A DNA stretch of 64,000 bases. It comes from Candidatus Cloacimonadota bacterium. Its GTDB lineage: Bacteria; Cloacimonadota; Cloacimonadia; Cloacimonadales; Cloacimonadaceae. Within the stretch, counting starts at the first letter, position 1. Each line of letters begins with the position of its first letter. The position numbers and the translations under genes were made by a program. The stretch covers positions 186,001 to 250,000 of the forward strand of contig JAKOXG010000011.1 in assembly GCA_029781115.1 (NCBI GenBank), written 5' to 3'. Under the pieces are notes generated by a model. That model was not told where the DNA came from. It did no database searches and worked only from the letters and a program-made list of their open reading frames with translations. Of this stretch, positions 7,230 through 46,374 are shown piece by piece.

Positions 7230-7441
7230 GCTTTTATCTATACCTGATGGTTTTTCTTAACTGAAGGTCAAATTATTGGTAGGCTGTCATTTGTCAAGCG
7301 ATTCTGTGAAAATGTAGCCGGCGGTCGTCGAACCGCCGCAAGCGAGCGAAGCTTGCTGTTTACAACTGCAGCGCAGCTGGCCAGCAGATCAAGTGCATTT
7401 CGATAAAGTTCACGGGAATTTTTAAAATTAAGCTATATTAA
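7230..7441. other. lepB 5' region and left flank of the CRISPR array
   Basis: No gene is seen. The stretch holds the lepB leader and a hairpin module GGCGGT-N6-ACCGCC at 7320-7337. After that come repeat-like pieces (GCAGCGCAGCTGGCCAGCAG) and an A/T-rich tract just before the first CRISPR repeat (7410-7441). That A/T-rich tract is what a CRISPR leader would look like if the array is read on the plus strand. Confidence 0.45.
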
Positions 7442-7985
7442 GTCTCAATCCCCTCTAACGGGTCATATGCTTTCAGACATGCCAAGGCCTGTTTTCTGAA
7501 AAGGGCCCAAGTGTCTCAATCCCCTCTAACGGGTCATATGCTTTCAGACATGGAACAATGGCACAGAGTTGACGCTTGCTGCTCTAAGTCTCAATCCCCT
7601 CTAACGGGTCATATGCTTTCAGACTATGAAGTTCTTACCCAATACTCCAACTTTAGTCAAGTCTCAATCCCCTCTAACGGGTCATATGCTTTCAGACCAA
7701 CAAATATATGATCAAGGAGAATCAAAATGATCGTCTCAATCCCCTCTAACGGGTCATATGCTTTCAGACGGCGGCCATACTAGTGCATGGCCACGAAAAT
7801 TGTGGTCTCAATCCCCTCTAACGGGTCACATGCTTTCAGACATGTCTACTGGCGAATCGTTTGGAGCTCGCACCCGTGTCTCAATCCCCTCTAACGGGTC
7901 ACATGCTTTCAGACATGGCGAAGGAGGAAGGACTTGAACTCGAATACATGTCTCAATCCCCTCTAACGGGTCAAAACTCTTAGAC
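7442..7985 (+). CRISPR. CRISPR array, 8 repeats of 37 bp, 7 spacers, no cas genes in window
   Basis: Repeats start at 7442, 7513, 7588, 7661, 7733, 7805, 7878 and 7950. Each begins GTCTCAATCCCC and ends GCTTTCAGAC; spacers are 34-38 bp. Repeats 1-5 read TCATATG inside, repeats 6-7 read TCACATG, and the last (7950-7985) is degenerate in its right third and 36 bp long. A degenerate right end and an A/T-rich left flank favour plus-strand reading. However, the reverse complement ends ATTGAGAC, close to the ATTGAAAC 5' handle of type I-A/B and III crRNAs, which favours minus-strand reading. The subtype cannot be assigned without cas genes. None of the spacers obviously matches another part of the window. 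Confidence 0.97.
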
Positions 7986-8180
7986 AGAGCTGGGTCGCTA
8001 TGGCAAGCGACCATACTCCTAACGGGTCACTGATACCACTCTAAAAACCCACACCAAGCTGTCAAGCAAATATCGCCTCCCATCCACTACTGTCAGGTAA
8101 CTGGCAACTACTTCGGCGGTTCAGCGACCGCCCGTACAGGTCGCTATGGCAAGCGACCATACTCCTAACGGGTCGCATTT
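7986..8180. repeat. Hairpin repeats fused to CRISPR-repeat fragments
   Basis: Two copies of GGTCGCTATGGCAAGCGACC (7993-8012 and 8139-8158) are each followed directly by ATACTCCTAACGGGTC. The CTAACGGGTC part matches the core of the CRISPR repeat. The copies are 146 bp apart. A second hairpin, GGCGGT-N6-ACCGCC, is at 8115-8132. It looks as if a repeat unit carrying a piece of CRISPR repeat was duplicated at the right end of the array. No gene is visible. Confidence 0.7.
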
Positions 8181-13766: not shown

Positions 13767-16651
13767 GCCTCCTCCTTACTCTGCTTTCTCACTGCTTTTT
13801 GCAGTTCTGATCTGGTGATGCCTTGGGATTTGCGCTTATCATCCTGCGAGCTGCCTGTATGATAGCCAAATTCTATGCACTGGGAGAGAGTGGAGCTGAT
13901 CCGTTCGCGCCACTTATACCATTTCTTGGCCTTGGTGCCTTCCGCTTCGGGATTGCTCTCCAGCACCATCCAAAAGAGGGAGAGAATCTCTTTGTGCTGC
14001 TTCCACTCCTCGGGGTCTAAGGTCTTGTAAAAGTCGTAGTAATAATGCTCATAGAAGATGAGTTGATCCTCATCCGCGGAGCCGGTCTTGAAGTCGATGA
14101 TGTAGTCCTGGGCGGGTGAATGGATGCGCAGGTCTGCCCTGCCGCCAATCATCACCCGAAAGCCGAAATCAGCATCCAGGTTGCTCAGCTCAACGTAGCC
14201 GGTTCTGACGCTGCTGTCTTCAGGCAGCACCTCAAAGGTCGCATTCCTCAGGTTGGGCTCCAGCCAGCGGTAATAGAACTGCTGCACGCTGTCCACCAAA
14301 CAATCTGCGACCACTTCCAGGAGGAAGTCCCGGTTGTAGTTTTGCGGCATCTTGAAGTTCCAGTTGTCGCTTTCCAACAGGTCCATCAGCTCCTGTTTCA
14401 GCCCACCGGCATCGCCAAACACCGCCTCCAGCCTGCTGAGATCGCTGTTTCTCCCTGCCACCTTGCCCAGGATCCTGCCCATAAACTCATGTGTGATATT
14501 GCCAAAGAGCAGGGGACTGAGTGTTTCTTCCGGATGCAGCTCCACCGGCTCTATCCTGCGGTGTTTGGTGAGATACCAGGAGAAGGGATTGGAGGTGAAG
14601 TGACTGAGGCTGTAGGAGTTGAACCTCAGCTCGTTGCCAAAATCCTGCTCGCTAAAGGGCAGCACAAAGAAGTCAGCTGCGGGGCTGGGGGAGAAGTCAT
14701 ATTTCCCGGATTGCAGCAGCAGCGGATGCACGGATTCTTCTTGGTGAATCTTGCTTTGCGCTTGGCTGAGGAGAGCAGCGTCTATAGTGGGCTGGATGTA
14801 TTCCAGCGTAATCTGCTTTTGCAGCCTGGGCTCAGTGCGCAAAGGGTCAAGGTGCTGCATGAGCTCATTGAGGTAGGAGCTTGGTTCCAAGTCGTTTTCC
14901 TGCTCGCTGTAGCAGTAGAGGGTGGTCTTTTGGCTGCCCAGGATGAGCCTGAGGAAGTAATAGCGTTCCCAATCGCGGATAATGTCGTAGTTCTTGAGTC
15001 CCAGGCTGAGCTTCTGTGCCTGGTTCAGCAGCCAGACAGGCTCCGGGTTCTTGGGTAAAATGCCTTCCATGCAGTTGAAGACGATCACCTCGTCATAGCG
15101 GAGATTGCGGCTGTCCAGCAGGTTGCTGACCTGATACAAGGTTCTGTCTTTCTTGAGATTGCGCTCGACCTTACCGGCGGCTAAGAAGTCCAGCCACAGC
15201 TTGAAGATCCTGTGAGCAAGCTCGCTGTCCGCAGGAGCGAAGATGTTCTGCCAATCGCTCACGATGCCTAACTCTTCCACACTGAGGAAGTTTGCCAGCC
15301 TCTCATAAAAGCTGGAGATGATGTCTGTGGATTCATATTCTTCTGCGCTGCAGAGCCGCTCCAGCTTGATGCCTGACTCGCTGTCAAAGAGAGCTACCAT
15401 GTGTTTGATGCTGGTGATCTGCTGCAAAGCCTTGAGGATGGCAAAGTGAGCCCGCAGCAGGTTGCAGAGGTTGGCGAGGTCTTTGTCCTTAAGCTCCTTG
15501 AGCTCAAAGACTTTCAATCCCATATCTATATAGAGCACAGATTCTTTGGCCAAGAGGCGCAATTGATCCAAGAGCTGCTGCCTGTCCTGCAGGTTGTAGA
15601 TTTGGATAAATCCCGGTGTGGCAATCGCTTTGGTCACCTCCGAAAGCGGGAGATAGCTCTTTCCCTCATATTGTGCCAAGGCAGCCAGATGGCTTTCATA
15701 GAGCTTGAGCAGTGAGAAAAGCTGCGTCTTGGTCATGCTGATATTGCTGCCAAAGCCAAAGCGGATGGGATCGAAGAGGCGGCTGTAGCCACTTTGCTGC
15801 ATGCCGGCATCGATCAAGACCCGGCGCAGGGGCTTCTCTTCGGCCAAAAGTGCCTCTTTCTGCGAGCCGTAAGTGCTCAGGCAGCTCACGCTCATCTGCG
15901 CCAAGCTCTGGCAATGCACCACCTTCAGCTCTTGCAGTGCGATCTGTTCCGCAGGTATTTGGCTGAGCACCAAGGGCTTGGGCTCCAGGTTCACCTCATC
16001 AAAGCTGTCCGGGATACCCTGATGCAGGATCACGATTTCAAATCCCACCTCATCCAGCTTCCTGATCAGCTCTTTTTCCAGCTTGCTGTAGTGGTATTGA
16101 TTTACAAAGACCAGCTTTTGCGGTTTCTCCAGTGGGATCAGATTTGCCAGATCCAGGTAGAAGATGGCGTCGGAAAAGCCTTTTTCGTTGATGAACTCCT
16201 CATATCGCTTCAGGATGCCCAGCACCCGATCGATGTGCTGTTCCTGCCATTCGCGGGTATTGAGGTTGGGGTTGTTTTTCAGCGCAGACAGCGGCACCTG
16301 CTCATCTCTCAGCTCCCCAAAGAAGGTAAAGAAGCCATTTCCCCAGCTCACCAGGTCGTCATAGCTTTCCAGGTGGAAGGTGTCTTTATCCTCTTTTTCC
16401 AAGACCTGCCAGAGGCAAAGCAATCGCTTTTCATCGGTCAGAGCGGGCAAAGGCGGCACGATGAGCCAATTCACGAACTCCTGGATGGTAAACCAGCGGA
16501 TGCGCTGTAACTGCCACTGCGGCAAAAAGCTTTGGATAGCCCGGTTTTTGGCCGGATGAATGGGGAAGATCAAACAGCAATCATCAACTATCTGCTCCAG
16601 AGCCATGGAGTTGACGTCCTGATTGAAAGGCACATAGATGCATTTGAGCAT
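13763..16651 (-). CDS. addB: AddB-like helicase-nuclease subunit
   Basis: The 962-residue protein lacks a clear Walker A motif. It carries a C-terminal PD-(D/E)xK nuclease (GGRADLRIHSPAQDYIIDF then KTGSADEDQ, about 860-890), the usual plan of degenerate AddB subunits. The middle contains a helicase-like DEVIVFNCMEGILPKNPEP segment. I see no clustered C-terminal cysteines of the kind that hold the AddB iron-sulfur cluster, so the Bacteroidota-type variant seems likely. The ATG at 16651 follows a strong AAGGAG six bases upstream. It lies 18 bp after cls and overlaps addA by 4 bp, giving a cls-addB-addA unit. Confidence 0.82.
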   Translation of the reverse strand: MLKCIYVPFNQDVNSMALEQIVDDCCLIFPIHPAKNRAIQSFLPQWQLQRIRWFTIQEFVNWLIVPPLPALTDEKRLLCLWQVLEKEDKDTFHLESYDDLVSWGNGFFTFFGELRDEQVPLSALKNNPNLNTREWQEQHIDRVLGILKRYEEFINEKGFSDAIFYLDLANLIPLEKPQKLVFVNQYHYSKLEKELIRKLDEVGFEIVILHQGIPDSFDEVNLEPKPLVLSQIPAEQIALQELKVVHCQSLAQMSVSCLSTYGSQKEALLAEEKPLRRVLIDAGMQQSGYSRLFDPIRFGFGSNISMTKTQLFSLLKLYESHLAALAQYEGKSYLPLSEVTKAIATPGFIQIYNLQDRQQLLDQLRLLAKESVLYIDMGLKVFELKELKDKDLANLCNLLRAHFAILKALQQITSIKHMVALFDSESGIKLERLCSAEEYESTDIISSFYERLANFLSVEELGIVSDWQNIFAPADSELAHRIFKLWLDFLAAGKVERNLKKDRTLYQVSNLLDSRNLRYDEVIVFNCMEGILPKNPEPVWLLNQAQKLSLGLKNYDIIRDWERYYFLRLILGSQKTTLYCYSEQENDLEPSSYLNELMQHLDPLRTEPRLQKQITLEYIQPTIDAALLSQAQSKIHQEESVHPLLLQSGKYDFSPSPAADFFVLPFSEQDFGNELRFNSYSLSHFTSNPFSWYLTKHRRIEPVELHPEETLSPLLFGNITHEFMGRILGKVAGRNSDLSRLEAVFGDAGGLKQELMDLLESDNWNFKMPQNYNRDFLLEVVADCLVDSVQQFYYRWLEPNLRNATFEVLPEDSSVRTGYVELSNLDADFGFRVMIGGRADLRIHSPAQDYIIDFKTGSADEDQLIFYEHYYYDFYKTLDPEEWKQHKEILSLFWMVLESNPEAEGTKAKKWYKWRERISSTLSQCIEFGYHTGSSQDDKRKSQGITRSELQKAVRKQSKEEA

Positions 16652-16669: not shown

Positions 16670-18268
16670 TTATAACAGGGGTGAGAAGAGTCGGCAGATA
16701 GATTCTATCGAGCGCACAAAGAAGTTTTTCTGCTTGATTTGCTCCAGGGTCACCTGCTCGCTTTTGCTCAGGTCTTCATTGAAAGCCTCCACAGCTGTGG
16801 CTACTGTAGGCGGGTGATAGATCATGGCGGTGGCTTCAAAATTGTGTTGGAAGCTGCGCAAGTCCATATTTGCCGTGCCGATGGAAAGTATCTCATCATC
16901 CACGATCAAGACCTTGGAATGCAGGAAGCCGCCCTTGTAATCGTAGATGTTGACGCCCACTTCCAGCAGTTCTTTAAAGTAGGAGCGGCTACCAAACCAA
17001 ACGATGTAGTGATCTGCTTTTCCGGGCACGATGATATCTATCTTCACGCCGCTGAGGGCACTGGTTTTGAGTGCTGCACGCAGGCTTTCATCGAGGATCA
17101 GGTAAGGTGTGGTGATGCGGATACTGCGTTGTGCATTGCAGATGGCAAAGAAATAGGCCTGCATGATGCTGGCATGATCCGTATCCGGCCCGCTGGCGAC
17201 CATCTGTATATGGATGTCTTCCAATAGCTTGACCTCTTCCGGCGGCAGCTTGAGATACCTGGATGCTTGATCCGATTTGAGCAGGTTTTGCTTGCTGACA
17301 AAATACCAATCCACCAAGAACAGAGCCTGCAGACTGATGGCACCCTCGCCATGCACGCGCAGGACGTTGTCTCGCCAGTAACCATAATACTTGCTTTTGC
17401 CCAAGTATTTATCGCCGATATTGAGCCCGCCCAGATAGGCGATATGACCGTCTACGACCACGATCTTACGGTGGTTTCTATAGTTGGTGCGGCTGTTGAG
17501 CAGCGGAATCCAGACCGGCATGAAAGGCACAAATTCCACGCCCGCCTCGCGCAGCTCTTTTTTGAATTTGCGCCCCAATTTCCAACAGGCCACATCGTCG
17601 TAGATAAAGCGCACCTTCACGCCTTCCTTCACCTTGCGGATCAGCGCACGCTTGAGCGTCTGTCCCGTCTCGTCATTGGCCACGGAAAAGTATTCCAGAT
17701 GCACATGATCCTTGGCTTCGGCGATGTCTTTGAGGATGCTCTCCATCGCTTCATCTGTTTCCGCATAGAGTTGCACTTGGTTGTGACAGGTGAGGATGGC
17801 TTTGCTATTGGATTTGAGCAGGTTTTTGATCCTGAGAGCCAAGGGCGAAAGATCATCCGTATCACAATCGGCTCCCGGGAGATTAAGCGCATCCAGGTTG
17901 ATGGAATCTTCCAGACCCTTGCGGTTGAAAAGGCGCACCTTGCGCCAATTGCGGCCGAAGAAGAGATAAAAGATAAAGCCCACCACCGGAATGTAAATCA
18001 ACACCAAAATCCAAGCCAAAGTCTGCACCGGATTTTCGTTTTCCAAAACCAACACGATGATCATCAACACAATGGTAATGGCGAAGAGGGTGCTCAGGAT
18101 TTTGAACGTCAGGTTGGTAAAAGCGAAGATAAATTCGCCCCCTATGATCCAATACACCAGGCTCGCTATCAGCAGCAGAGCGATCAAGAGGATCATGATG
18201 AGCAAAATGCTATCCCAAATATCTCGAGTAAACACCGCAACTCCTTGGCTTTTTGTTGTGGAGGCCAA
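16670..18268 (-). CDS. cls: Cardiolipin synthase / phospholipase D family
   Basis: A 532-residue membrane enzyme. Two N-terminal hydrophobic helices (about 18-45 and 50-72) are followed by a PLDc_N segment with VLIYIPVVGFIFYLFFGRN. Two HKD motifs follow: HRKIVVVDGHIAYLGG (about 265) and HSKVLIVDDEILSIGTAN (about 445). Members join two phosphatidylglycerols into cardiolipin at the inner membrane. Length and two-TM plan match bacterial Cls. It is the promoter-proximal gene of the cls-addB-addA unit; linkage of Cls to AddAB is not functionally obvious. Confidence 0.9.
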   Translation of the reverse strand: MASTTKSQGVAVFTRDIWDSILLIMILLIALLLIASLVYWIIGGEFIFAFTNLTFKILSTLFAITIVLMIIVLVLENENPVQTLAWILVLIYIPVVGFIFYLFFGRNWRKVRLFNRKGLEDSINLDALNLPGADCDTDDLSPLALRIKNLLKSNSKAILTCHNQVQLYAETDEAMESILKDIAEAKDHVHLEYFSVANDETGQTLKRALIRKVKEGVKVRFIYDDVACWKLGRKFKKELREAGVEFVPFMPVWIPLLNSRTNYRNHRKIVVVDGHIAYLGGLNIGDKYLGKSKYYGYWRDNVLRVHGEGAISLQALFLVDWYFVSKQNLLKSDQASRYLKLPPEEVKLLEDIHIQMVASGPDTDHASIMQAYFFAICNAQRSIRITTPYLILDESLRAALKTSALSGVKIDIIVPGKADHYIVWFGSRSYFKELLEVGVNIYDYKGGFLHSKVLIVDDEILSIGTANMDLRSFQHNFEATAMIYHPPTVATAVEAFNEDLSKSEQVTLEQIKQKNFFVRSIESICRLFSPLL

Positions 18269-18530
18269 GATAATAACAAGGCTGGATTTGTGTCAACAAG
18301 TTTAAATTGCCGCTGCCCAAATTGGGATAAAAAGTCTTAATATTCCACCTCAAAAACGAGCCGGCTGATGTTGGCTTTTGATGCGAGAGCGACTCCTCTG
18401 GCCTGGGGTGAGTCCACAAAGATTCACACTTCCAGGTTCCGTCGCCTTGCAAAGCCAACGCAGCCGGCTACACTCTCTCCTGAAAATTTCGCTATCACCA
18501 TCTCGAAGGAGACGATCAAAATACCACCAC
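18269..18530 (-). other. Intergenic region with a long inverted repeat; probable gene remnant
   Basis: Read on the minus strand, AGCCGGCTG...TTGGCTTT pairs with AAAGCCAA...CAGCCGGCT (18361-18469). The arms are about 19 bp with a bulge, and the loop is about 70 nt. The stretch lies directly downstream of an orphan promoter box. Where the sister copy has an ATG, this one has GGT and early stops. No credible gene is left. Confidence 0.45.
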
Positions 18531-18605
18531 TTTGATCTCCTCTGAGACAGCCTTCTATAACATTAGTGTCAAAACTGCCGATTTTGAGATGCTGGAATCG
18601 CAACT
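18531..18605 (-). promoter_or_regulatory. Conserved 75-nt promoter box, orphan copy
   Basis: It aligns without gaps to 39512-39586 at 62 of 75 positions. The conserved core contains AAAATCGGCA, TTTTGACACT and TTATAGAAG, and the box ends in GGAGAT. In the sister copy this drives a small ORF and the 2010-residue surface protein. Here it follows a sigma-like gene in the same order and spacing but has no surface gene behind it. The hexamer in the -10 place is TGTCTC instead of TATTCT, so it may have decayed. Confidence 0.7.
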
Positions 18606-18779
18606 TTTTTTGCTTTTGTGAAAATAATTTTGCATGAGGCGTCCCAAGGCCATGCCTATCTGTCTTTGTGTCAGTGTGTTATGCTGATTTGGAATACCGC
18701 AAAAAAAAGTTCACTTTTTTATTGCACTTTTCTCCCGAAGCCGGGTTTTCCCGGAAAACCGACAGTGAGAATCCACCCA

Positions 18780-18815
18780 CAAAAAAGCCGGCCCCCATCA
18801 AGGAGCCGGCTTCAA
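18780..18815 (-). terminator. Terminator of the sigma-like gene
   Basis: AAGCCGGC...GCCGGCTT stem (18785-18792 with 18805-18812). On the minus strand it is followed by TTTTTT (18781-18786). It lies 20 bp after the stop codon. The same GCCGGC-type hairpin ends the paralogous gene at 39302. Confidence 0.85.
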
Positions 18816-18834
18816 AAAATCTGTGCCGAAGGCG

Positions 18835-19935
18835 TTATTTTCCCTTTAGCAGTGACATTATTTCCTGGTAATTCCAGAGAACCCTGCCTTTATCCACGGG
18901 GATGCGCATGTCTGGAGGAAGCTTGAACGAGCCAGCAACCTGATTGACTTTGAGGTCTTGGATAGAGATGCTGTTTCTTTCGTTCATAACGATATTGAAG
19001 GTGATCGCAAACGGCTCTTTATCCTCAAACAATGTAAATAGAAGCAGCTGATAGCGGTTTTCGCCCCTCATTGAGATCCCCCAATCGAGTATGTTTTTGA
19101 TTCTTTTCACCTCTTTGGCTTGCTCTGGACTCAGATGTCTCAGCCACTCTATCTTCCCGTCTCCGCCAAGCGTTTTCAGCATTTCGCGGATAAACTTCCG
19201 GATTGCGTTGTATTGATTGTAGTCCAAGATCCCAGGAGTATCGCGCCAACCCATGCTGAGCAGGGCTTTTGATTTCAGGTTGCGGATGATCTTTTCCTTC
19301 CTCTTTTGGGCTACCTTTTCGCTGATATCGTGAGCAGTAGCAAAGTCCCTGAGACTCTCAAAGGTCGTCAGTTCGTGATACTGCCGATATTCATCGGTAT
19401 CCAGAAGCTTTTCCATCAAAGTGGGATCCAGCTCTTTGAGTTCCATGGGGTCGCCGGATTCCAGCCACTTTGCATAGGATTGGGATTCCAGAGAGAGCCG
19501 GTTGTACAGCTTCAATTCTTTTTCGGTTTTTCCATGGTGAGCGCAAAGGAGGTTGTAAGTTACCTGGATCAGCCAAGCATTGATGTTTTCTACTTTCCGG
19601 GGAGACAGCAACAGCAATTTGATGGCTTCCTGGGCGATGTCGTTGGAAAGATCGGCGTCCTGAGTTTTATACATGCTAAACCGGTAACAATCTTTCTGAT
19701 AGCCTGCAAACACGTCATCCACCGCCTTGGGGAAAAGAGAATTGGCGACAAATTCTTGCGTCAGCTTTGCCGGATCCTGAGGCATGGAGCTGTCCAAAAG
19801 CTGCATTTGAGCGGCGTTTACGAGATCCGAGGACAGATCCATATTGCTAAAGGTCTGCGCTGCCAATTGGGCGATCTGCCCAAAGATGGCATCACTTTGC
19901 TCTTGGCCGATGTCAGCGATGTAATCCTGTTTCAT
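18835..19935 (-). CDS. ECF-sigma-factor-like protein with long C-terminal extension (paralogue A)
   Basis: I assign this 366-residue protein to the sigma-70/ECF superfamily by pattern. Region 2 is around residues 90-145: DLSNDIAQEAIKLLL, then INAWLIQVTYNLLCAHHG, which mirrors ECF D-x2-QE...AWL...N-L. Region 4 is around 195-225: LRDFATAHDISEKVAQKR..KIIRNL, a helix-turn-helix. A further ~140 residues of unknown function follow, ending WNYQEIMSLLKGK. The N-terminal 85 residues are also unusual for ECF factors. It has two relatives in the window (38175 and 46039). Its 116-nt upstream region is shared with the 46039 copy. It stands between the cls operon and repeat copy 2, followed by an orphan promoter box. 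Confidence 0.7.
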   Translation of the reverse strand: MKQDYIADIGQEQSDAIFGQIAQLAAQTFSNMDLSSDLVNAAQMQLLDSSMPQDPAKLTQEFVANSLFPKAVDDVFAGYQKDCYRFSMYKTQDADLSNDIAQEAIKLLLLSPRKVENINAWLIQVTYNLLCAHHGKTEKELKLYNRLSLESQSYAKWLESGDPMELKELDPTLMEKLLDTDEYRQYHELTTFESLRDFATAHDISEKVAQKRKEKIIRNLKSKALLSMGWRDTPGILDYNQYNAIRKFIREMLKTLGGDGKIEWLRHLSPEQAKEVKRIKNILDWGISMRGENRYQLLLFTLFEDKEPFAITFNIVMNERNSISIQDLKVNQVAGSFKLPPDMRIPVDKGRVLWNYQEIMSLLKGK

Positions 19936-20051
19936 CTTGATAACGTCTCCTTTTTGGCTACCGATGAGCTACAACCTGGCGTATTGGCACCACCTGTCAA
20001 GTTAAGAATTGTAGCTTTTGACCTTAGCTGCGTGCAAGAAGTGAGCCAATT
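19936..20051 (-). promoter_or_regulatory. Conserved 5' region of sigma-like paralogue A
   Basis: It aligns without gaps with 45923-46038 upstream of the truncated paralogue. Shared blocks are AATTGGC, GCTACAATTCTTAACTTGAC, TGCCAAT and an AAAAGGAGA ribosome binding site. TTGACA is in the -35 place, but the hexamer 17 bp on is not a good -10, so it may be read by an alternative sigma factor, possibly its own product. Confidence 0.6.
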
Positions 20052-38149: not shown

Positions 38150-38174
38150 AGAATAACTTGAAGGATGCTGTAAA

Positions 38175-39293
38175 ATGAAAAAAACTGACATCAAAGGCCT
38201 AAGCAAAGAACAAAGCGAAGCCATTTTTGGGCAGATCGCCAAATTGGCAGGGGAGACCTTTCTCAATATGGACCTGTCTCGCGATCTTGTCAAAGCCGCT
38301 CAAATGCTGCTTTTGAAGGACTCTTTATCTCAAGATCCGGCGGAGATCACCCAAGAGTTCGTCGCCAATACTCTTTTTCCCAGGGCGGTAAACAGCGTAT
38401 TTGCGGACTACCAGATTTATTGCCACCGCTATAGTTTGTCCAAGACCCAGGACCCCAACCTCTCTGAAGACATCGCCCAGGAAGCCGTCAAATTGCTGTT
38501 ATCATCCCCCAAAAGAGTGGAAAATATCGGTGCCTGGTTGATCCAAGTAACTTACAACCTCCTTCGGGCTCACTACAAAGAATCCAAGAAAGAAAAGAAG
38601 CTCTATCAAGAGCTCTCTCTGGAGGCCGGTTCCTATGAGAAATGGCTAAAGTCTGAAGACCTCATGGAACTCAAAGAGTTGGATTCCGCCATGGTGGAAG
38701 AGATGTTGAAAAGTGATGAATACCAACAGTATCATGAGATCATCTCATTTGACAGCATCAAAGACTATGCGGCTGCCCATAATATCAGTGAAGAAGTAGC
38801 CCAAAAGAGAAAAGAAAGAGCACGTCGCAACCTGAAATCAATGGTCCTGCTCAGCCTGGGCTGGCGCGATACCCCAAGTATACTGGACTACAATCAATAC
38901 AATGCAATTCGCAAGTTTATCCGCGAGGTGCCAAAAGTGCTAAAAGGTGAAGAGGAGGCAGAGTGGATAAAATCACTGAATTCAGACCATATAGAGGCTG
39001 TTAGAACAATAAAAACGATAGCTGATTGGGGAATTAAAACGCTGGGTGAGCGCAATTACAGGATTACTCTTTTTGCATTTTTAGAGGATAGGAAGCCACT
39101 TGGGATCACCTTCAATATCGTTCTGAGCAAGAGAAACAGTGTCTCTGTTCAAAGCTGCCTGGTCAATACACTTGCTGCCAAATTAGCGGTTGATGCAAAA
39201 GTTCGTGTTCCCGTTAATAGAGGCATGTCGATGTGGACTTTTGAGGAAATAACCACACTCCTGAAGAAAATTCATATAGCTCCCCTTGCCTGA
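38175..39293 (+). CDS. ECF-sigma-factor-like protein with long C-terminal extension (paralogue B)
   Basis: The 372-residue relative of the 18835 gene shares the same architecture. The N-terminus has EQSEAIFGQIAKLAGETF. A sigma region-2-like segment follows (LSEDIAQEAVKLLL; AWLIQVTYNLLRAHYKESK, about 95-145). A region-4-like helix-turn-helix (IKDYAAAHNISEEVAQKR, about 195-220) and a ~150-residue tail ending WTFEEITTLLKK complete it. The strongest conservation between paralogues is in the N-terminal 110 residues, region 4 and the GWRDTP.ILDYNQYNAIRKFIRE segment at about 235-262. It is followed by a terminator, then a 75-nt conserved promoter box, then a giant surface protein. That order suggests it controls the surface gene, by inference. 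Confidence 0.72.
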   Translation: MKKTDIKGLSKEQSEAIFGQIAKLAGETFLNMDLSRDLVKAAQMLLLKDSLSQDPAEITQEFVANTLFPRAVNSVFADYQIYCHRYSLSKTQDPNLSEDIAQEAVKLLLSSPKRVENIGAWLIQVTYNLLRAHYKESKKEKKLYQELSLEAGSYEKWLKSEDLMELKELDSAMVEEMLKSDEYQQYHEIISFDSIKDYAAAHNISEEVAQKRKERARRNLKSMVLLSLGWRDTPSILDYNQYNAIRKFIREVPKVLKGEEEAEWIKSLNSDHIEAVRTIKTIADWGIKTLGERNYRITLFAFLEDRKPLGITFNIVLSKRNSVSVQSCLVNTLAAKLAVDAKVRVPVNRGMSMWTFEEITTLLKKIHIAPLA

Positions 39294-39299
39294 CAGATT

Positions 39300-39332
39300 A
39301 TAGCCGGCTCACCCTGGCCGGCTTTGCTTTTT
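39300..39332 (+). terminator. Terminator of sigma-like paralogue B
   Basis: AGCCGG...CCGGCT stem (39302-39323) followed by TTGCTTTTTG, 8 bp after the stop. It separates the sigma gene from the surface gene, so the latter needs its own promoter. Confidence 0.8.
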
Positions 39333-39511
39333 GTGATATTACCGGAATTTCTCCTGCTTGTTTGGTAGAAAAAACCTCCTCTTCGAGGAAAGCTCCCAAA
39401 AGTGTGAGCTTAGTTTCTCTCCGCCCATTATCCCCTAACATACTGCCACTGTTGCAGATAACCTAAAGATAGCAGCGCCTGTCCCAAAACTAATATCGCA
39501 AAATCGAAAAT

Positions 39512-39586
39512 AGTTGCCATTCCAGCATCGGAAAATCGGCACTTTTGACACTTATATTATAGAAGACTATTCTAAAGGAGATGAAA
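39512..39586 (+). promoter_or_regulatory. Conserved 75-nt promoter box of the giant surface protein gene
   Basis: 83% identical without gaps to 18531-18605. It includes TTGACA (39545-39550), a 17-bp spacer and TATTCT (39568-39573), then AAAGGAGA. Upstream, AGTTGCCATTCCAGCATC and AAAATCGGCA are conserved, beyond what a housekeeping promoter needs; these may be the sites read by the sigma-like protein or an activator. Confidence 0.7.
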
Positions 39587-39588
39587 AA

Positions 39589-39801
39589 ATGAAAGAACCG
39601 ACCTTTTTCAAGCCGATGGAAGCTTTCAAGCTTTACATTGAAGAGACAGGAACAATGTTTGCACCTCTATTTCAGCGTCCCTTCTACCATTGTAATGGCT
39701 ATTCTCCTCTGCAGCACCGGGTACTGATATATAGACTGCAAGCATGTTTACAGCTTTGTAAGATACTGCTATCAGCAGAACAAAAAAGGAGAGAGACATG
39801 A
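39589..39801 (+). CDS. Possible small leader ORF, coupled to the giant surface gene
   Basis: A 70-codon frame starts at ATG 39589 with a strong AAAGGAGA seven bases upstream and ends in an ATGA overlap with the next gene. The product (MKEPTFFKPMEAFKLYIEE... ending LLSAEQKRRET) matches nothing I know. It may be a regulatory leader peptide or simply untranslated leader. The next gene has its own AAGGAGAG. Confidence 0.35.
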   Translation: MKEPTFFKPMEAFKLYIEETGTMFAPLFQRPFYHCNGYSPLQHRVLIYRLQACLQLCKILLSAEQKRRET

Positions 39802-42800
39802 AAAGATTGACGTCTTTGATCGTAGCGATTGCGGTTGGGCTCATCATTGGTCTCAACGCTCTTACGATTACAGTAGGTACGACGATGGAAACAGTTAGCC
39901 TATACCCGATCCATACCCAACGCAGCTACAATTACACCCAACAAATCTACACTCAGTCACAGATCAACCAACAAGGTGAGATCTCCAAGATCAGGTTTTT
40001 CCGTCACCACTCCGGTGAACTTGATAACAGCCACAATTGGGTGGTTTACATGGGGCATACCGCCCGCGATTTTTTCCCAAATACATGGGAATGTGTACCG
40101 GCAGATAGCCTCACGCAGGTATTCTCTGGCAGCCTTCTCGACAACTTTCCTGCTCCCGGACAGTGGATGGAGATCACTTTGGATACCCCCTTCAGCTATA
40201 ACAACTCAAACAACTTGTTGGTAGCTGTTTATGAAAACACGCCCGATTACAGCGAGACCGTGATGTGGGCTGGTTTTGACAGTGGCAATTATAGAGGCTT
40301 GTATTATGGCAGCAATAGCATAGATCCAGATGTCAATGCTCCACCTCATGCCAACCAAAGGTCAAGACGAATCGCCTCCATTCAATTTGTATTTACAGAT
40401 ACTGAGGCTCCCGTGGCACCCGCGCTGGTCTTTCCAGAAAACTACGCCACCATCGTGAATGGTCAGGCCTTGGAATGGGCTTTGCCTACTGGTACTGCAG
40501 ATGTAACTGGTTATGATGTGTATATTGATGGCACTCTGGTAAGCGATAACCAAGTGTCCAATCAGTACTTACTCACTGACTTGGAGTCTGGGCCTCATAC
40601 CTGGCACGTGGTTGCACGCAACGACATCGGCTCTTCGCCTCCCTCTGCAACGGGAAACTTTACCATCGCAACAGGTTTGATAATAGGCGATGGCACGCTG
40701 GAAGGTGTGTTGCCCGTCTATGCCTATCAAGATTACAGCTACACTCAGAGCATCTTTCTGCAATCTGAAATCAACATCAGCAATCAGCGCATTGAACGAA
40801 TCGCCTACTATTGGAATGGTGCGGGTGTGGGAACCAACACCAGCGATTGGAAGGTTTACATGGGTCACGTGCAGAGGAGCGGGTTTGACAGCATGTCAGA
40901 TTGGGTTCCCGTTAGCCATATGATACAGGTCTTTGATGGTCACCTGAATATCCCTGCCACACCCGGCTGGATAGAGATTGAATTGGACACCCCTTTCGTC
41001 TATAACAACATGGATAACTTAGTGATCGCCGTGGATGAAAATACACCCAATCACGATGGTAACAATCAACGCTTTTATAGCACGCCCACGCCAGACCAAT
41101 ATCGTAGCATCCATTACTATTACGGCGGCAGCAATCCTGACCCCGCCTCACCTCCTAACGGGTTCTTGCAGCCCGCATATCCCAATATCATGATTAAGTT
41201 CGGAGACCTGCCCACAAGTCCCGTTTTGGAAGTTATACCCCCAGGCTTAAACTTTGGTACGGTGATATATGGACAGCCCAACGAGCCACTTACCGTGATG
41301 GCTTCCAACATGGGAGGTGGGACTATAAACCTGACCGCTGCAGATGTTAGCCTCATAGGCCAGAATGCGGCTGAGTTTTCCTTTGATCCTGCAAACCTGC
41401 CCGCAACTTTGGGCTCTGGACAATATGTATTTATTCCGGTAACGGTGACAGGATTTACCACAGGCCAGGTCTCTGCTACCCTGCGCATTATCTATGATGG
41501 ACAAAACCATGATGTACACCTGACTGCAGTCGTCTCACCTGTCAACACTATCATGATAGGAAATGGCACCCAAGCGCAAGGATATCCTTTTGGAACGCTA
41601 TGGGGGTTTGAACGCTCTGCTTCCCTCTACACTGCGGATCAGATCGGCATAGTGGGCACTCTCGACATGGTAGCTTGGGATTGTGCCACCCCTGCCAACA
41701 TAAACATTCCCTACAAGATTTGGGCTAAAAACACCACCGAGACAGCCCTGACACCTCAAACCTGGCAGAGTTTTACCGCCGGTGCGACCCTGCTCAAACA
41801 GGGCACATTCACACCTAACACCTCGGGCTGGAAATCCTTTCAACTGGATACCCCCTTTAGCTATACCGGTTCGGGCTTGATCATCGCCATAGAAAGCAAT
41901 TATGGCGGCTCAGGTATAGAAAGTGATCACTCGTTTAGATATACCAACCTCGGTACACAAAGGCATCAGGTGTGGCGTTATGATAACAGTGAACCCACAG
42001 GTAACGGGTGGATTTACGCAGATATTCCCAATATCATGATGCACATTGCCACAGATGTTGAGGACGACCTCTGCGCTATAAACATCAGTGGCAGCCTCAC
42101 GCCCACAGTCGGACAAGAGACCAGCTACACCGTGCGCATAAGAAACAACGGCAGCATCAATCAAAGCAACTATCAGGTAAAACTGATGGGACACAATAAC
42201 GCTCAACTGGCGGTGGTGAACGGACCTCCGATAAACAGCGGCATGACTGCTGATGTAGAGCTCTTGTGGACGCCCACCGTCGTAGGCCCTACCACTCTCT
42301 GCGGCAAAGTGGAGCTTGATGGTGATGAAGTTGCCATCAACAACCAGACCGCTCCCGTGGCAGTAGATGTCCAACCCGCCGGCGTCGTGGCCGTTACTAT
42401 TGGTTCGGGTGATGAACTTGCCCGCATTCCCATGGACTTCTGGGCGCGCAACTCACTCTACGAGACACTGTATCTATCTGATGAGCTTGGCTTTACCACT
42501 GGCACCATCACCTCTATAGCCTTCTTCAACCAGTTCAACAACAATGTGGACATCGGAGCCACCAAGGTCTTCTTGGGAAGCACCACGCAAAACGACCTCA
42601 GTGGAGGCTTTATCCCTGCCACTGAATTGACCATGGTCTACGATGGAGACATATGCTATCCAAGCGGTAACAACACTATCCTCATTGACTTGCAAACACC
42701 CTATATGCACAGTGGTGGCAACCTGGTTATGATGATGAACCGTCCCATGAATGCCCCCTCCTACTCCTCAGGCGAAAACTTCAGATGTCAGACTATCGGC

Positions 42801-45800
42801 AACAACCGCGCTCGTAATATCTCAAGCGGGGGCATCACTATCGATCCCTACGACCCTCCCGAAGGATTACTCACGGGGCAGTTTCCAAAGACTACCTTCT
42901 ACTACACCTCGACTCTGATCGAAAACGACTTGGGCGTCGTAACCATCACCGGCAACACCTGTCCCACCGTGGGTGTACCCTCAACTTACACCGTTCGCTT
43001 GCGGAACCATGGCATAGAGGCTCAAGACACCTACACCGTAAAACTCGTGGATTCAAACAATGTGCAGCTTGCCAGCGTGGCAGGACCTCCCATCCAAAGC
43101 CAGCAAACAGTGGAAGTGGAGCTTCCCTGGACACCTACCACTCAAGGTAATTGCGCAATCTATGGAAAAGTGGAAATGGCTGGCGATCAAATCTCCAACA
43201 ACAACTTCACACGGCCTCTCAACCTCGTGGTCAGTCCCGCAGGAGTGTTGGCACTCACTGTGGGCGATGGCAATGAGAGTGCGCGCATACCCATTGATAT
43301 GTTATATAGACACTTCCTCTTCCAGAGCCTCTACTTTCCGGACGAGATGGGAGGCTCCATAGGAAGAATCACGGGCCTGAGGTTCTACAATCAATTCAAT
43401 AGCAACCTCGATGAGATACCCATCTCTATCTGGCTGGGTACCACCACGCAAAACAGCTTGGTTGAAGGGTTTATTTCCCCTATGGAGCTCACCTTGGTGT
43501 ATGATGGGCCGGTAGATTTACCCAGCGGAGACAACATCATCGACATCGCCTTTGATGAACCGTTTTTGTTCTTGGGTGACACCAACCTGGTGGTATCGGT
43601 CTACAAGAATAACACGAACCCCCTTCCACAGACAAACTGCTTCAAGTGTCAAACTGTGGGAACCAACCGCAGCAGAAAAGCGTCTTCATTCCATGCAAAC
43701 TTCGATCTCACGAATACTTCTTTGGGAACTCCCACTGGTCAATTCCCCATGACCACTTTCGTGACGGTACCGGGTGGAGTGGGGCAGATCTACGGGACTG
43801 TGACAGGTGCAAACAACCAACCCCTCAGCGGCGTGGCAGTAAGCCTCAATGATGGCGAATATTACACCACCACAAACGCTTCCGGACAATATCAACTAAC
43901 CAATGTCTTTACACAGGCCTACACCCTCTCCTTCAGCGTGCATGGTTATCACGAACACACTCAGACCTTGGTAATCGAATCTGACGATGAACTCACCATT
44001 GACGTGACCTTGCAGCTCTTGCCTCAAGTGAGCGTGACCGGAACCATCCTGGCCAGCGACTCTGGAGAAGGAATCCCCGATGTCCTGATTACGCTTAGTG
44101 GCTATGAGCCCTACAGCACCAATACAAACGCTGCAGGTGTTTTCACATTCCCCAACGTATTCGCTGGCCATACTTACGATTACAGCATCCGTGCCCGTGA
44201 CTACACTCCAATAAGCGGCCAGGTGACTATCGGCAACACAAACCACGACATGGGCCAAATCAATCTCATCGAAATACCTTACGCTCCCATGAGTGTAACT
44301 GCTGCAGTAAACGACATCGGCAACGCTGTCAATATCGCTTGGCTGGCTCCAGACTCCGACGCTATGGAGGTCGTCGAGAGCTTTGAAGACACTGAATTCC
44401 CGCCCACTGGCTGGACTCAAACCATCACCAACGAGAGCGCCCCAAACGCCGCGGGCATCTATCCCACCTGGTGCAGAATAGCTACCGTCACCGTCTTGGA
44501 CGAAACTATCACTCCCACCGAGGGCAGCTTCCAAGCCGGCTTGCACTGGGATTACAATCACCAGGACGAGTGGCTGATCACACCATCACTCAACTGCCCG
44601 CCCATTGCCTACCTCAGCTTTGACACCCACGCGTATTTCGGATCCGTGGATGGTGATCACCACTATGTGAAAGTCTCCACAGACAACGGCACCACCTGGA
44701 CAGTTCTCTGGGATGCTTCTGAGCAAACCGGCGGCTGGAACCGTTATTCCTCACCAGTTACCGTTGACTTGAGTGCCTACTCCGGTGAACAAATCAAGAT
44801 CGCCTTCCACGCCGAAGACCCACCTGACAACACAGGCCTCCGCTACTCCTGGTATATAGATAATGTCTACATCGGCTATGGCAGCGTTAGATTACAACTT
44901 GACTTGGATGGCTTTACCAGAGTGTCGGCAGACGGTAATCAACGTCGGGCTTTCGGCAATCTACCCCTCAGAGCAATGTCTCGCAGAGCAAAGGAAGGAA
45001 ATACCCGCGCTGAGCCCAGCGCACCGCGTCCTAACGAGGGTGACCTTGCGCACCGTTCGCCAAGGGTGCTGACCGGTTATATGGCCTACAGATTGCAGGC
45101 AGAACAAGAACAAAACGAAGGCACTTGGGAGGTATTGACGAGCGAACCCACCAATGCGCTCAGCCTCACTGATTCCGGTTGGGATGCGCTGCCAAACGGT
45201 AGCTACCTCTGGGCTATCAAAGCCATCTATACCAACGGCGTCACCTCTGTAGCCAGCTTCTCAAATATCATCAACAAGCATGCTATCACGGGAATTATAG
45301 CAGGAACTGTGAGACGTGAAAACGCCACCGGTATCGCTGGTGCAACCGTAACCAATGGAACCGAGACCACCACCACAAACTCTATGGGTGCCTACACACT
45401 GATCGTTCCCGTGGGTTGTCACTCGGTGACCGCATCTGCTGCGGGATATGCTGACCTGACCGTGGACGATGTGCCGGTCAACCAAGACCTCACTACCACC
45501 GTAAACTTTATCTTGGAGGAAGTGAGCAATGATGATAACCTGCTACCCGTAGCAGTTACTGCACTAAACGGCAACTACCCCAACCCCTTTAACCCTGAAA
45601 CTACCATCAGTTACAGCGTCAAGGAACCCGGGAAGGTAAAGCTGGAAGTCTATAACATCAAAGGACAACTGGTGAGAACCTTGGTGGATGAAGAGCAGGT
45701 TACAGGTCATTATAAACTGATCTTCGATGCGAGGGATGACCGTGGACGCCCCATCTCCAGCGGTGTATACATGCTGAAGATGGTAGCTCCCGGATACCGC

Positions 45801-45830
45801 AAGACATCCAAGATGATCCTCATGCAATAA
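39798..45830 (+). CDS. Giant secreted multidomain surface protein with FlgD-like/type IX sorting domain
   Basis: 2010 residues with a signal peptide (1-22). A ~180-residue beta-rich unit recurs near residues 25-200, 294-470, 585-750, 865-1035 and 1152-1320. Each has an IGDG/IGSG opening and a SYNYTQ or ESLY-type segment. Between them are a fibronectin-like domain (201-293), an ASPM/HYDIN-like domain (475-580) and two CARDB-like domains (754-860, 1042-1150). Carboxypeptidase-regulatory-like domains follow at 1329-1410, 1412-1500 and 1834-1905, and a choice-of-anchor-J/MAM-like domain at 1527-1695. The end (1925-2010) has NYPNPFNPETTISY...GQLVRTL...SSGVYMLKM, the FlgD-like sorting tail. Probably exported and fixed to the outer surface. 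A basic, low-complexity stretch (1712-1758) interrupts a fibronectin-like unit. It has a strong AAGGAGAG. Confidence 0.88.
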   Translation: MKRLTSLIVAIAVGLIIGLNALTITVGTTMETVSLYPIHTQRSYNYTQQIYTQSQINQQGEISKIRFFRHHSGELDNSHNWVVYMGHTARDFFPNTWECVPADSLTQVFSGSLLDNFPAPGQWMEITLDTPFSYNNSNNLLVAVYENTPDYSETVMWAGFDSGNYRGLYYGSNSIDPDVNAPPHANQRSRRIASIQFVFTDTEAPVAPALVFPENYATIVNGQALEWALPTGTADVTGYDVYIDGTLVSDNQVSNQYLLTDLESGPHTWHVVARNDIGSSPPSATGNFTIATGLIIGDGTLEGVLPVYAYQDYSYTQSIFLQSEINISNQRIERIAYYWNGAGVGTNTSDWKVYMGHVQRSGFDSMSDWVPVSHMIQVFDGHLNIPATPGWIEIELDTPFVYNNMDNLVIAVDENTPNHDGNNQRFYSTPTPDQYRSIHYYYGGSNPDPASPPNGFLQPAYPNIMIKFGDLPTSPVLEVIPPGLNFGTVIYGQPNEPLTVMASNMGGGTINLTAADVSLIGQNAAEFSFDPANLPATLGSGQYVFIPVTVTGFTTGQVSATLRIIYDGQNHDVHLTAVVSPVNTIMIGNGTQAQGYPFGTLWGFERSASLYTADQIGIVGTLDMVAWDCATPANINIPYKIWAKNTTETALTPQTWQSFTAGATLLKQGTFTPNTSGWKSFQLDTPFSYTGSGLIIAIESNYGGSGIESDHSFRYTNLGTQRHQVWRYDNSEPTGNGWIYADIPNIMMHIATDVEDDLCAINISGSLTPTVGQETSYTVRIRNNGSINQSNYQVKLMGHNNAQLAVVNGPPINSGMTADVELLWTPTVVGPTTLCGKVELDGDEVAINNQTAPVAVDVQPAGVVAVTIGSGDELARIPMDFWARNSLYETLYLSDELGFTTGTITSIAFFNQFNNNVDIGATKVFLGSTTQNDLSGGFIPATELTMVYDGDICYPSGNNTILIDLQTPYMHSGGNLVMMMNRPMNAPSYSSGENFRCQTIGNNRARNISSGGITIDPYDPPEGLLTGQFPKTTFYYTSTLIENDLGVVTITGNTCPTVGVPSTYTVRLRNHGIEAQDTYTVKLVDSNNVQLASVAGPPIQSQQTVEVELPWTPTTQGNCAIYGKVEMAGDQISNNNFTRPLNLVVSPAGVLALTVGDGNESARIPIDMLYRHFLFQSLYFPDEMGGSIGRITGLRFYNQFNSNLDEIPISIWLGTTTQNSLVEGFISPMELTLVYDGPVDLPSGDNIIDIAFDEPFLFLGDTNLVVSVYKNNTNPLPQTNCFKCQTVGTNRSRKASSFHANFDLTNTSLGTPTGQFPMTTFVTVPGGVGQIYGTVTGANNQPLSGVAVSLNDGEYYTTTNASGQYQLTNVFTQAYTLSFSVHGYHEHTQTLVIESDDELTIDVTLQLLPQVSVTGTILASDSGEGIPDVLITLSGYEPYSTNTNAAGVFTFPNVFAGHTYDYSIRARDYTPISGQVTIGNTNHDMGQINLIEIPYAPMSVTAAVNDIGNAVNIAWLAPDSDAMEVVESFEDTEFPPTGWTQTITNESAPNAAGIYPTWCRIATVTVLDETITPTEGSFQAGLHWDYNHQDEWLITPSLNCPPIAYLSFDTHAYFGSVDGDHHYVKVSTDNGTTWTVLWDASEQTGGWNRYSSPVTVDLSAYSGEQIKIAFHAEDPPDNTGLRYSWYIDNVYIGYGSVRLQLDLDGFTRVSADGNQRRAFGNLPLRAMSRRAKEGNTRAEPSAPRPNEGDLAHRSPRVLTGYMAYRLQAEQEQNEGTWEVLTSEPTNALSLTDSGWDALPNGSYLWAIKAIYTNGVTSVASFSNIINKHAITGIIAGTVRRENATGIAGATVTNGTETTTTNSMGAYTLIVPVGCHSVTASAAGYADLTVDDVPVNQDLTTTVNFILEEVSNDDNLLPVAVTALNGNYPNPFNPETTISYSVKEPGKVKLEVYNIKGQLVRTLVDEEQVTGHYKLIFDARDDRGRPISSGVYMLKMVAPGYRKTSKMILMQ

Positions 45831-46038: not shown

Positions 46039-46374
46039 ATGAAACGGGCTTATACAGCTGACATCAGCCAAGATCAAAGTGAAGCCGTCTTTGGGCAGAT
46101 CGCCCAATTGGCAACGCAGACCTTCAGCTATATGGATCTGTCCTCAGATCTCGTCAAAGCCGCTCAGGTGCAGCTTTTGGAGAGCTCTATATCCCAAGAT
46201 TCTGCAGAACTGACGCAAGATTTTGTCGCCAATACTCTTTTCCCAAAGGCGGTAGATAACGTGTTTGCGGGCTATCAGAAAGATTGCTACCGATTCAGTT
46301 TGTCCAAGACCCAGGACGCCGATCTCTCTGATGACATCGCTCAGGAAGCCATCAAATTGCTGTTGCTAAAATAG
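46039..46374 (+). pseudogene. Truncated ECF-sigma-like gene (paralogue C)
   Basis: The 111 residues match the first ~110 of the other two paralogues nearly throughout (QSEAVFGQIAQLATQTF; LTQDFVANTLFPKAVDNVFAG; LSDDIAQEAIKLLL). The frame then stops at LK-stop, inside the region-2-like helix. The rest of region 2, region 4 and the tail are gone; the next CDS starts 65 bp later. The 5' region is intact, so a short peptide may still be made. It would retain the N-terminal domain but no DNA-binding part. Confidence 0.8.

Follow-up and report, generated by a model that had tools for sequence, protein, structure and literature searches.

ECF41 is the nearest described system in layout to the locus studied here. 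The ECF41 sigma factors of B. licheniformis and R. sphaeroides, with SigJ and SigI of M. tuberculosis, are sigma-2/sigma-4 proteins to which a C-terminal domain is fused, and their target promoter, a conserved one, adjoins the sigma gene (PMC3426412, PMC8999054); this promoter is given as TGTCACA-N16-CGTC (PMC3426412). A comparable arrangement was found in a window of 64,000 nucleotides (the whole stretch of DNA that was analysed) from a Candidatus Cloacimonadota bacterium, where a putative sigma-2/sigma-4 protein, the C-terminal part of whose model gave weak NTF2-like matches, stands beside a promoter-like box. However, TGTCACA-N16-CGTC did not agree with the consensus of 25 boxes obtained in our study. 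The neighbours of ECF41 are carboxymuconolactone decarboxylase, oxidoreductase or epimerase (COE) genes, whereas no COE family was present among the scanned neighbours of the box and the sigma gene, the first open reading frame (ORF) matching a secreted peptide of about 69 amino acids in 15 of 23 sigma-adjacent boxes instead. The present genomes also differed from ECF41 in containing several boxes each, some of them away from the sigma gene. The PorXY-SigP system of Porphyromonas gingivalis is similar in that an ECF factor is tied to proteins of the type IX secretion route (PMC4800418); it differs in that SigP, with a two-component system, regulates the secretion machinery, whereas the box described here fronts peptide and cargo-like surface genes.

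The locus was pointed out in a preliminary description as a promoter box behind a sigma-like gene, matching a second box in the window but followed by no target gene, and was read as a cassette that has lost its surface gene. The features of this orphan locus and of its twin are listed in Table 1. A 46-base pattern built from both boxes matched exactly at 18552–18597 on the minus strand and 39520–39565 on the plus strand and nowhere else in the window, whereas 100 shuffled sequences gave no match (0 expected); the observation of two related boxes was thus sound, and a chance match was rejected. The whole genome contained four copies, namely the two of the window, one on contig C2 and one on contig C19. 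For wider searches we used two sequence-only models of the box, trained on 8 and 17 copies; at E ≤ 0.001 the second found 42 boxes, which were spread over 16 of the 49 genomes in the bacterial family. The orphan box obtained the top score with both models, having been in both training sets. The box contained the anchor stretch GACACT and the further stretch TTCCAGCATC and had a TATA-like end, and conservation spanned most of about 50 neighbouring positions. Judged from these comparisons, the box is a real, conserved, promoter-like element of about 80 nucleotides. The preliminary description was to fall if relatives never had a gene at this place and the box was both silent and unconserved; it does not fall on this count, because the box is conserved.

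Table 1. Features of the orphan locus and of the twin cassette (positions in the window)
Feature	Position	Strand	Basis
cls-like gene (phospholipase D family), the first one downstream of the orphan box	16670..18268	-	
Conserved region upstream of cls, common to G002 and G005, with sigma-70-like promoter match	18269..18317	-	
Gene-free 234-nt interval between box and conserved cls upstream region; proposed rearrangement junction	18318..18551	.	
Long inverted repeat/stem, then five U (18352–18356), terminator-like	18358..18471	-	fold z -4.11
Hairpin enclosing ribosome-binding site and start codon	18497..18551	-	fold z -4.81
GTG start and four-codon frame (Met/Val-Val-Val-Phe-stop)	18516..18530	-	read from sequence
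AGGAG, ribosome-binding-site-like	18537..18541	-	read from sequence
Orphan promoter-like box	18553..18632	-	pattern and box-model matches
Terminator-like hairpin and U-run, 3' of P0002	18785..18812	-	fold z -5.78
Intact ECF-like sigma gene P0002 (366 aa; 59% identity with P0001)	18835..19935	-	family match
ECF-like sigma gene P0001, 372 aa, twin cassette	38175..39293	+	
Twin box	39485..39564	+	pattern and box-model matches
Leader ORF of 70 aa, immediately behind the twin box, without family match	39589..39801	+	
Gene of a 2010-aa surface protein with C-terminal sorting domain, behind the leader ORF	39798..45830	+	

The family of P0001 and P0002 is called ECF-like here. P0002, which was full length, gave no Pfam match alone at E ≤ 1, and P0001 alone reached 13.5 bits against Pfam sigma region 2, under the 24-bit cut-off. 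In the family, Pfam Sigma70_r2 was matched by 17 of 19 members at E ≤ 0.5 (best 3.3e-7) and Sigma70_r4_2 by one of 19 (E 0.013). TIGR02985 (Sig70_bacteroi1) was matched by all 19 members at E ≤ 0.5 (best 1.6e-12); however, P0001 scored 21.9 bits with TIGR02985, whose curated cut-off is 126.4, and the match left some 140 residues uncovered at the C-terminal end. The full-length ECF models SigZ and SigM covered residues 72–225 of P0001 (E 7.7e-8 to 2.4e-6). Among solved sequences, the family profile had 12 matches at E ≤ 1 (best 2.7e-5), and every one was a named sigma factor. The structure model (pLDDT 82.0, pTM 0.52) weakly resembled ECF sigma chains, and Foldseek found no match to this model at E ≤ 0.001. 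For its C-terminal part, NTF2-like chains were listed at E 0.2–0.7 with probability up to 0.96, with unrelated hits mixed in, and SnoaL was absent from the Pfam families shown for the 19 homologues. The named records of the homologues were mostly Candidatus Cloacimonadota or Cloacimonetes bins, one of 18 loci being labelled Firmicutes and one only "bacterium". A truncated sigma copy of 111 amino acids was present at 46039–46374 of the window, between two surface genes and without a box behind it (79% identical to P0002 and 66% to P0001 over 105 amino acids), and further 5' pieces of the sigma gene were found at the ends of contigs C21 and C22.

The two cassettes of the window were homologous at the DNA level, 18531–19938 aligning with 38172–39586 at 69% identity over 1430 columns. 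The homology began at the start codon of the sigma gene, took in the box and the ribosome-binding site and ended just before the twin ATG at 39589; on the orphan side its end, 18531, is the left border of the finding. The box started 208 nucleotides behind the sigma gene at the orphan locus and 197 nucleotides at the twin, so that the equal box length and the equal place relative to the sigma-like gene, about 200 nucleotides in both, were rightly described. In an ungapped alignment from the ribosome-binding site, the twin ATG aligned with GGT, as the preliminary description had stated, and its remark that stops follow at once agreed with the frame GTG GTG GTA TTT TGA. The GTG of this frame was found two bases upstream of GGT and 40 nucleotides behind the start of GACACT, within the range of the other copies, and AGGAG preceded it. 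The two sigma-box modules lie in opposite orientation, as an inverted repeat that flanks about 18 kb; on both sides the gene order is changed compared with G005, and the modules are possible hot spots of rearrangement.

Across the bacterial family, 23 of the 42 boxes were located directly behind an ECF-like sigma gene, from overlap with the gene end to 327 nucleotides away. An ORF was counted as following the box when it had a ribosome-binding site, a start codon 30–55 nucleotides behind the GACACT anchor and a length of at least 20 amino acids. Such an ORF followed 21 of the 23 sigma-adjacent boxes, with the start 39–42 nucleotides behind GACACT in 20 and 51 nucleotides behind it in one. One exception was G063_C14, with a 10-codon frame at +40 and the start of a surface ORF at +86, 46 nucleotides further on; the other was the orphan locus at 18531. 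In a smaller earlier set, partly of named records, 19 of 20 boxes had the ORF and the sole miss was again the orphan box. Of the 19 boxes away from sigma genes, nine had the ORF by script, four more had an ATG in place on reading (G005_C73, G069_C13, G070_C74 and G069_C107), one had a 7-codon frame (G004_C8a) and five had nothing at the start place (G005_C13, G033_C18, G018_C2b, G034_C11b and G030_C127). Gene-less boxes thus exist away from sigma genes, and therefore a box need not imply a gene.

The box and the sigma gene co-occurred across genomes. Nine genomes had a match to P0001 at E ≤ 1e-69 and all nine had a box at E ≤ 1.1e-4, which was found in only three of the other 51 genomes (G018, G045 and G051). 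Two genomes speak against recognition of the box by the sigma factor. In G005, the boxes and the sigma gene were on different contigs. G018 contained two boxes (L141:1054-1123 and 14486-14555) and no match to P0001 at E ≤ 1e-5; one of its boxes was followed by no ORF and the other by just 29 codons, and they look like decaying leftovers. From the linkage and co-occurrence of gene and box we infer that the sigma factor probably reads the box. Another reading takes the box as a site for a different DNA-binding protein, or as a recombination site for the exchange of surface cassettes, and not as a sigma promoter. The conservation of more positions than two short hexamers would account for, the boxes apart from sigma genes in some genomes and the inverted repeat with its changed order on both sides would suit such a site, whereas the fixed distance to the start codon in 20 of the 23 sigma-adjacent boxes, the sigma linkage and the TATA-like end argue for a promoter and make the site reading very improbable.

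The undescribed secreted peptide found behind most sigma-adjacent boxes (alignment of 13 sequences) matched no Pfam or NCBIfam family in the four members scanned. Its predicted fold was confident (pLDDT 90.7), and no solved structure matched the model at E ≤ 0.001. The peptide was present in 19 of 60 genomes, all within this bacterial family. By a count from coordinates, 16 of 26 peptide matches followed a sigma match of like orientation at a distance of up to about 550 nucleotides; of the remainder, one adjoined a sigma gene on the other strand and nine were elsewhere or at contig ends. Among 36 genomes of the family, 18 contained both sigma gene and peptide, three the sigma gene only, one the peptide only and 14 neither (p 3e-6, Fisher, uncorrected for kinship). 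At several loci, there followed ORFs with the same sorting tail as the surface proteins of the window. Another type of first ORF (39589–39801 in the window; L010, L107), of 70–82 amino acids with similar ends and no evident signal peptide, preceded large surface genes and may be coding or a leader RNA. At the box of contig C19, which precedes the only secreted-peptide match of the genome (L011:7594-7900), the ATG at the usual place was in another frame than the peptide, whose own frame opens at a later ATG. Sigma gene, box and secreted peptide, often with surface proteins, are by these sequence comparisons a recurrent unit of an uncultured lineage; no description of such a cassette was found in the titles and abstract beginnings covered in the open-licence literature, which in some searches were those of part of the hits.

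The idea of a lost surface gene stands in part. An ORF followed 21 of the 23 boxes and the other exception has a surface gene a little beyond, but the usual next gene is the secreted peptide or a leader ORF and not the surface gene itself. The explanation that we regard as probable, though well short of certain, is that the orphan cassette was separated from its operon, a rearrangement being the probable cause, while its regulator and promoter stayed intact. The box would be a promoter region belonging to the ECF-like sigma family, in whose usual order the sigma gene comes first, then the box, and then a unit driven by the box and opening with a small secreted peptide or leader ORF and continuing, in several loci, with surface proteins. 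A rearrangement, whose junction probably falls between 18317 and 18551, would have parted the box from this unit, so that it now faces the unrelated cls; what would be left is the sigma gene, the box, a ribosome-binding site and a start codon. It is the architecture of the cassette, and not an orthologous locus, that suggests the loss of a gene over its absence from the start. The good preservation of the box fits a recent loss and also a retained function.

The surroundings of cls were compared with those of relatives. The homology upstream of cls stopped at 18317 in G002 and at 18315 in G005, and the segment 8776–18268 was inverted relative to G005. Both relatives contained a surface gene between cls and the signal peptidase gene; it was directly upstream of cls and in the same direction in G002, whereas the counterpart in G005 pointed away from cls. 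No sigma gene or box was found near cls in G002 and G005; part of the G002 stretch reads N, and therefore a box could be hidden there. The proposed comparison with relatives, for a surface gene between the box and cls, thus had a mixed outcome: G002 has a surface gene upstream of cls, but without sigma gene or box, and G005 has it in the opposite direction. A search of the genus found no orthologous locus at which a sigma gene and a box were accompanied by a following gene. When the interval in front of the conserved cls upstream region was compared with 60 genomes, only the extension of the box homology (to 18531) and a 20-base match in G023 (E 0.005) were obtained. No second copy was found in its own genome, the next matches having E > 1, and a copy of a mobile element was rejected on this ground. 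A remnant of the leader, peptide or surface gene in 18278–18527 was not significant in local alignments with six box-downstream regions (80 of 500 shuffles were as good over the six targets and 25 of 500 for the best single target). Because of this, a AGGAGAGA stretch near 18480, resembling the ribosome-binding site of the surface gene at 39787, was set aside and not used as evidence of a remnant. A junction within the interval is the simplest account of the changed order, and rearrangement would be the cause of the orphan box. A CRISPR-like array with eight repeat copies at 71–75-nucleotide spacing, the last degenerate, was present at 7440–7990, with the signal peptidase gene on one side and the inverted segment on the other. 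It lies at the far end of the proposed rearrangement and, as far as seen, is unrelated to the finding.

The close position of cls, 284 nucleotides downstream in the same orientation, allows for a capture of the promoter, by which the intact box would add sigma-controlled transcription of cls with the long stem as an attenuator. We consider this quite unlikely, since a strong terminator-like stem lies in between, and since cls has retained an upstream region that G002 and G005 share, although neither showed a box there. After a cut from the operon, the transcript from the box would hold only the four-codon frame; its probable end is the long stem near 18352–18358, before cls.

The preliminary description had also proposed that the box now drives a non-coding RNA with a long inverted repeat at 18361–18469. 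This repeat is real and was located at 18358–18471, although a simple scan with a loop limit of 3–8 did not list it. In its full form, the proposal is a functional small RNA of about 190–200 nucleotides, in which a 5' hairpin masks the ribosome-binding site and a single-stranded linker leads to the long terminator stem. The folds of both hairpins on the minus strand (Table 1) agree with it, and the 200 nucleotides behind the orphan box had a fold z of -5.16, the most extreme of the 24 box loci folded out of 25. In the opposite-strand control, however, the plus strand folded better (z -6.6) than the minus strand (-4.2), and four of 102 other intergenic windows reached z ≤ -4, which weakened the case for a structure specific to the transcript. 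The interval had no homologue in the 60 genomes and no second genomic copy. Rfam gave no match at the gathering score and only chance-level rows below it, and no known RNA family or tRNA was found at the locus. The structure signal, extreme for the window, is that of an inverted repeat in the DNA, for which a terminator suffices as explanation. A non-coding RNA is possible from the sequence but unsupported, because the opposite strand folds better and no homologue was found; of that earlier proposal the inverted repeat stands, and the functional small RNA is unlikely.

A more far-reaching idea is that Cloacimonadota switch their surface proteins by an undescribed cassette of sigma gene, box and secreted peptide, the peptide perhaps feeding back on the sigma factor, and that the freed promoter at 18531 now gives a sigma-controlled structured RNA between box and terminator; taken as a whole, we hold this to be quite improbable. 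With its full-length sigma gene, best-scoring box and no operon, the locus is a natural promoter-only control. A comparison with the twin at 39485 would tell whether the box is the target of the sigma factor and what the operon contributes. The recurrent unit of sigma gene, box and peptide is a testable entry to the choice of surface proteins in an uncultured lineage.
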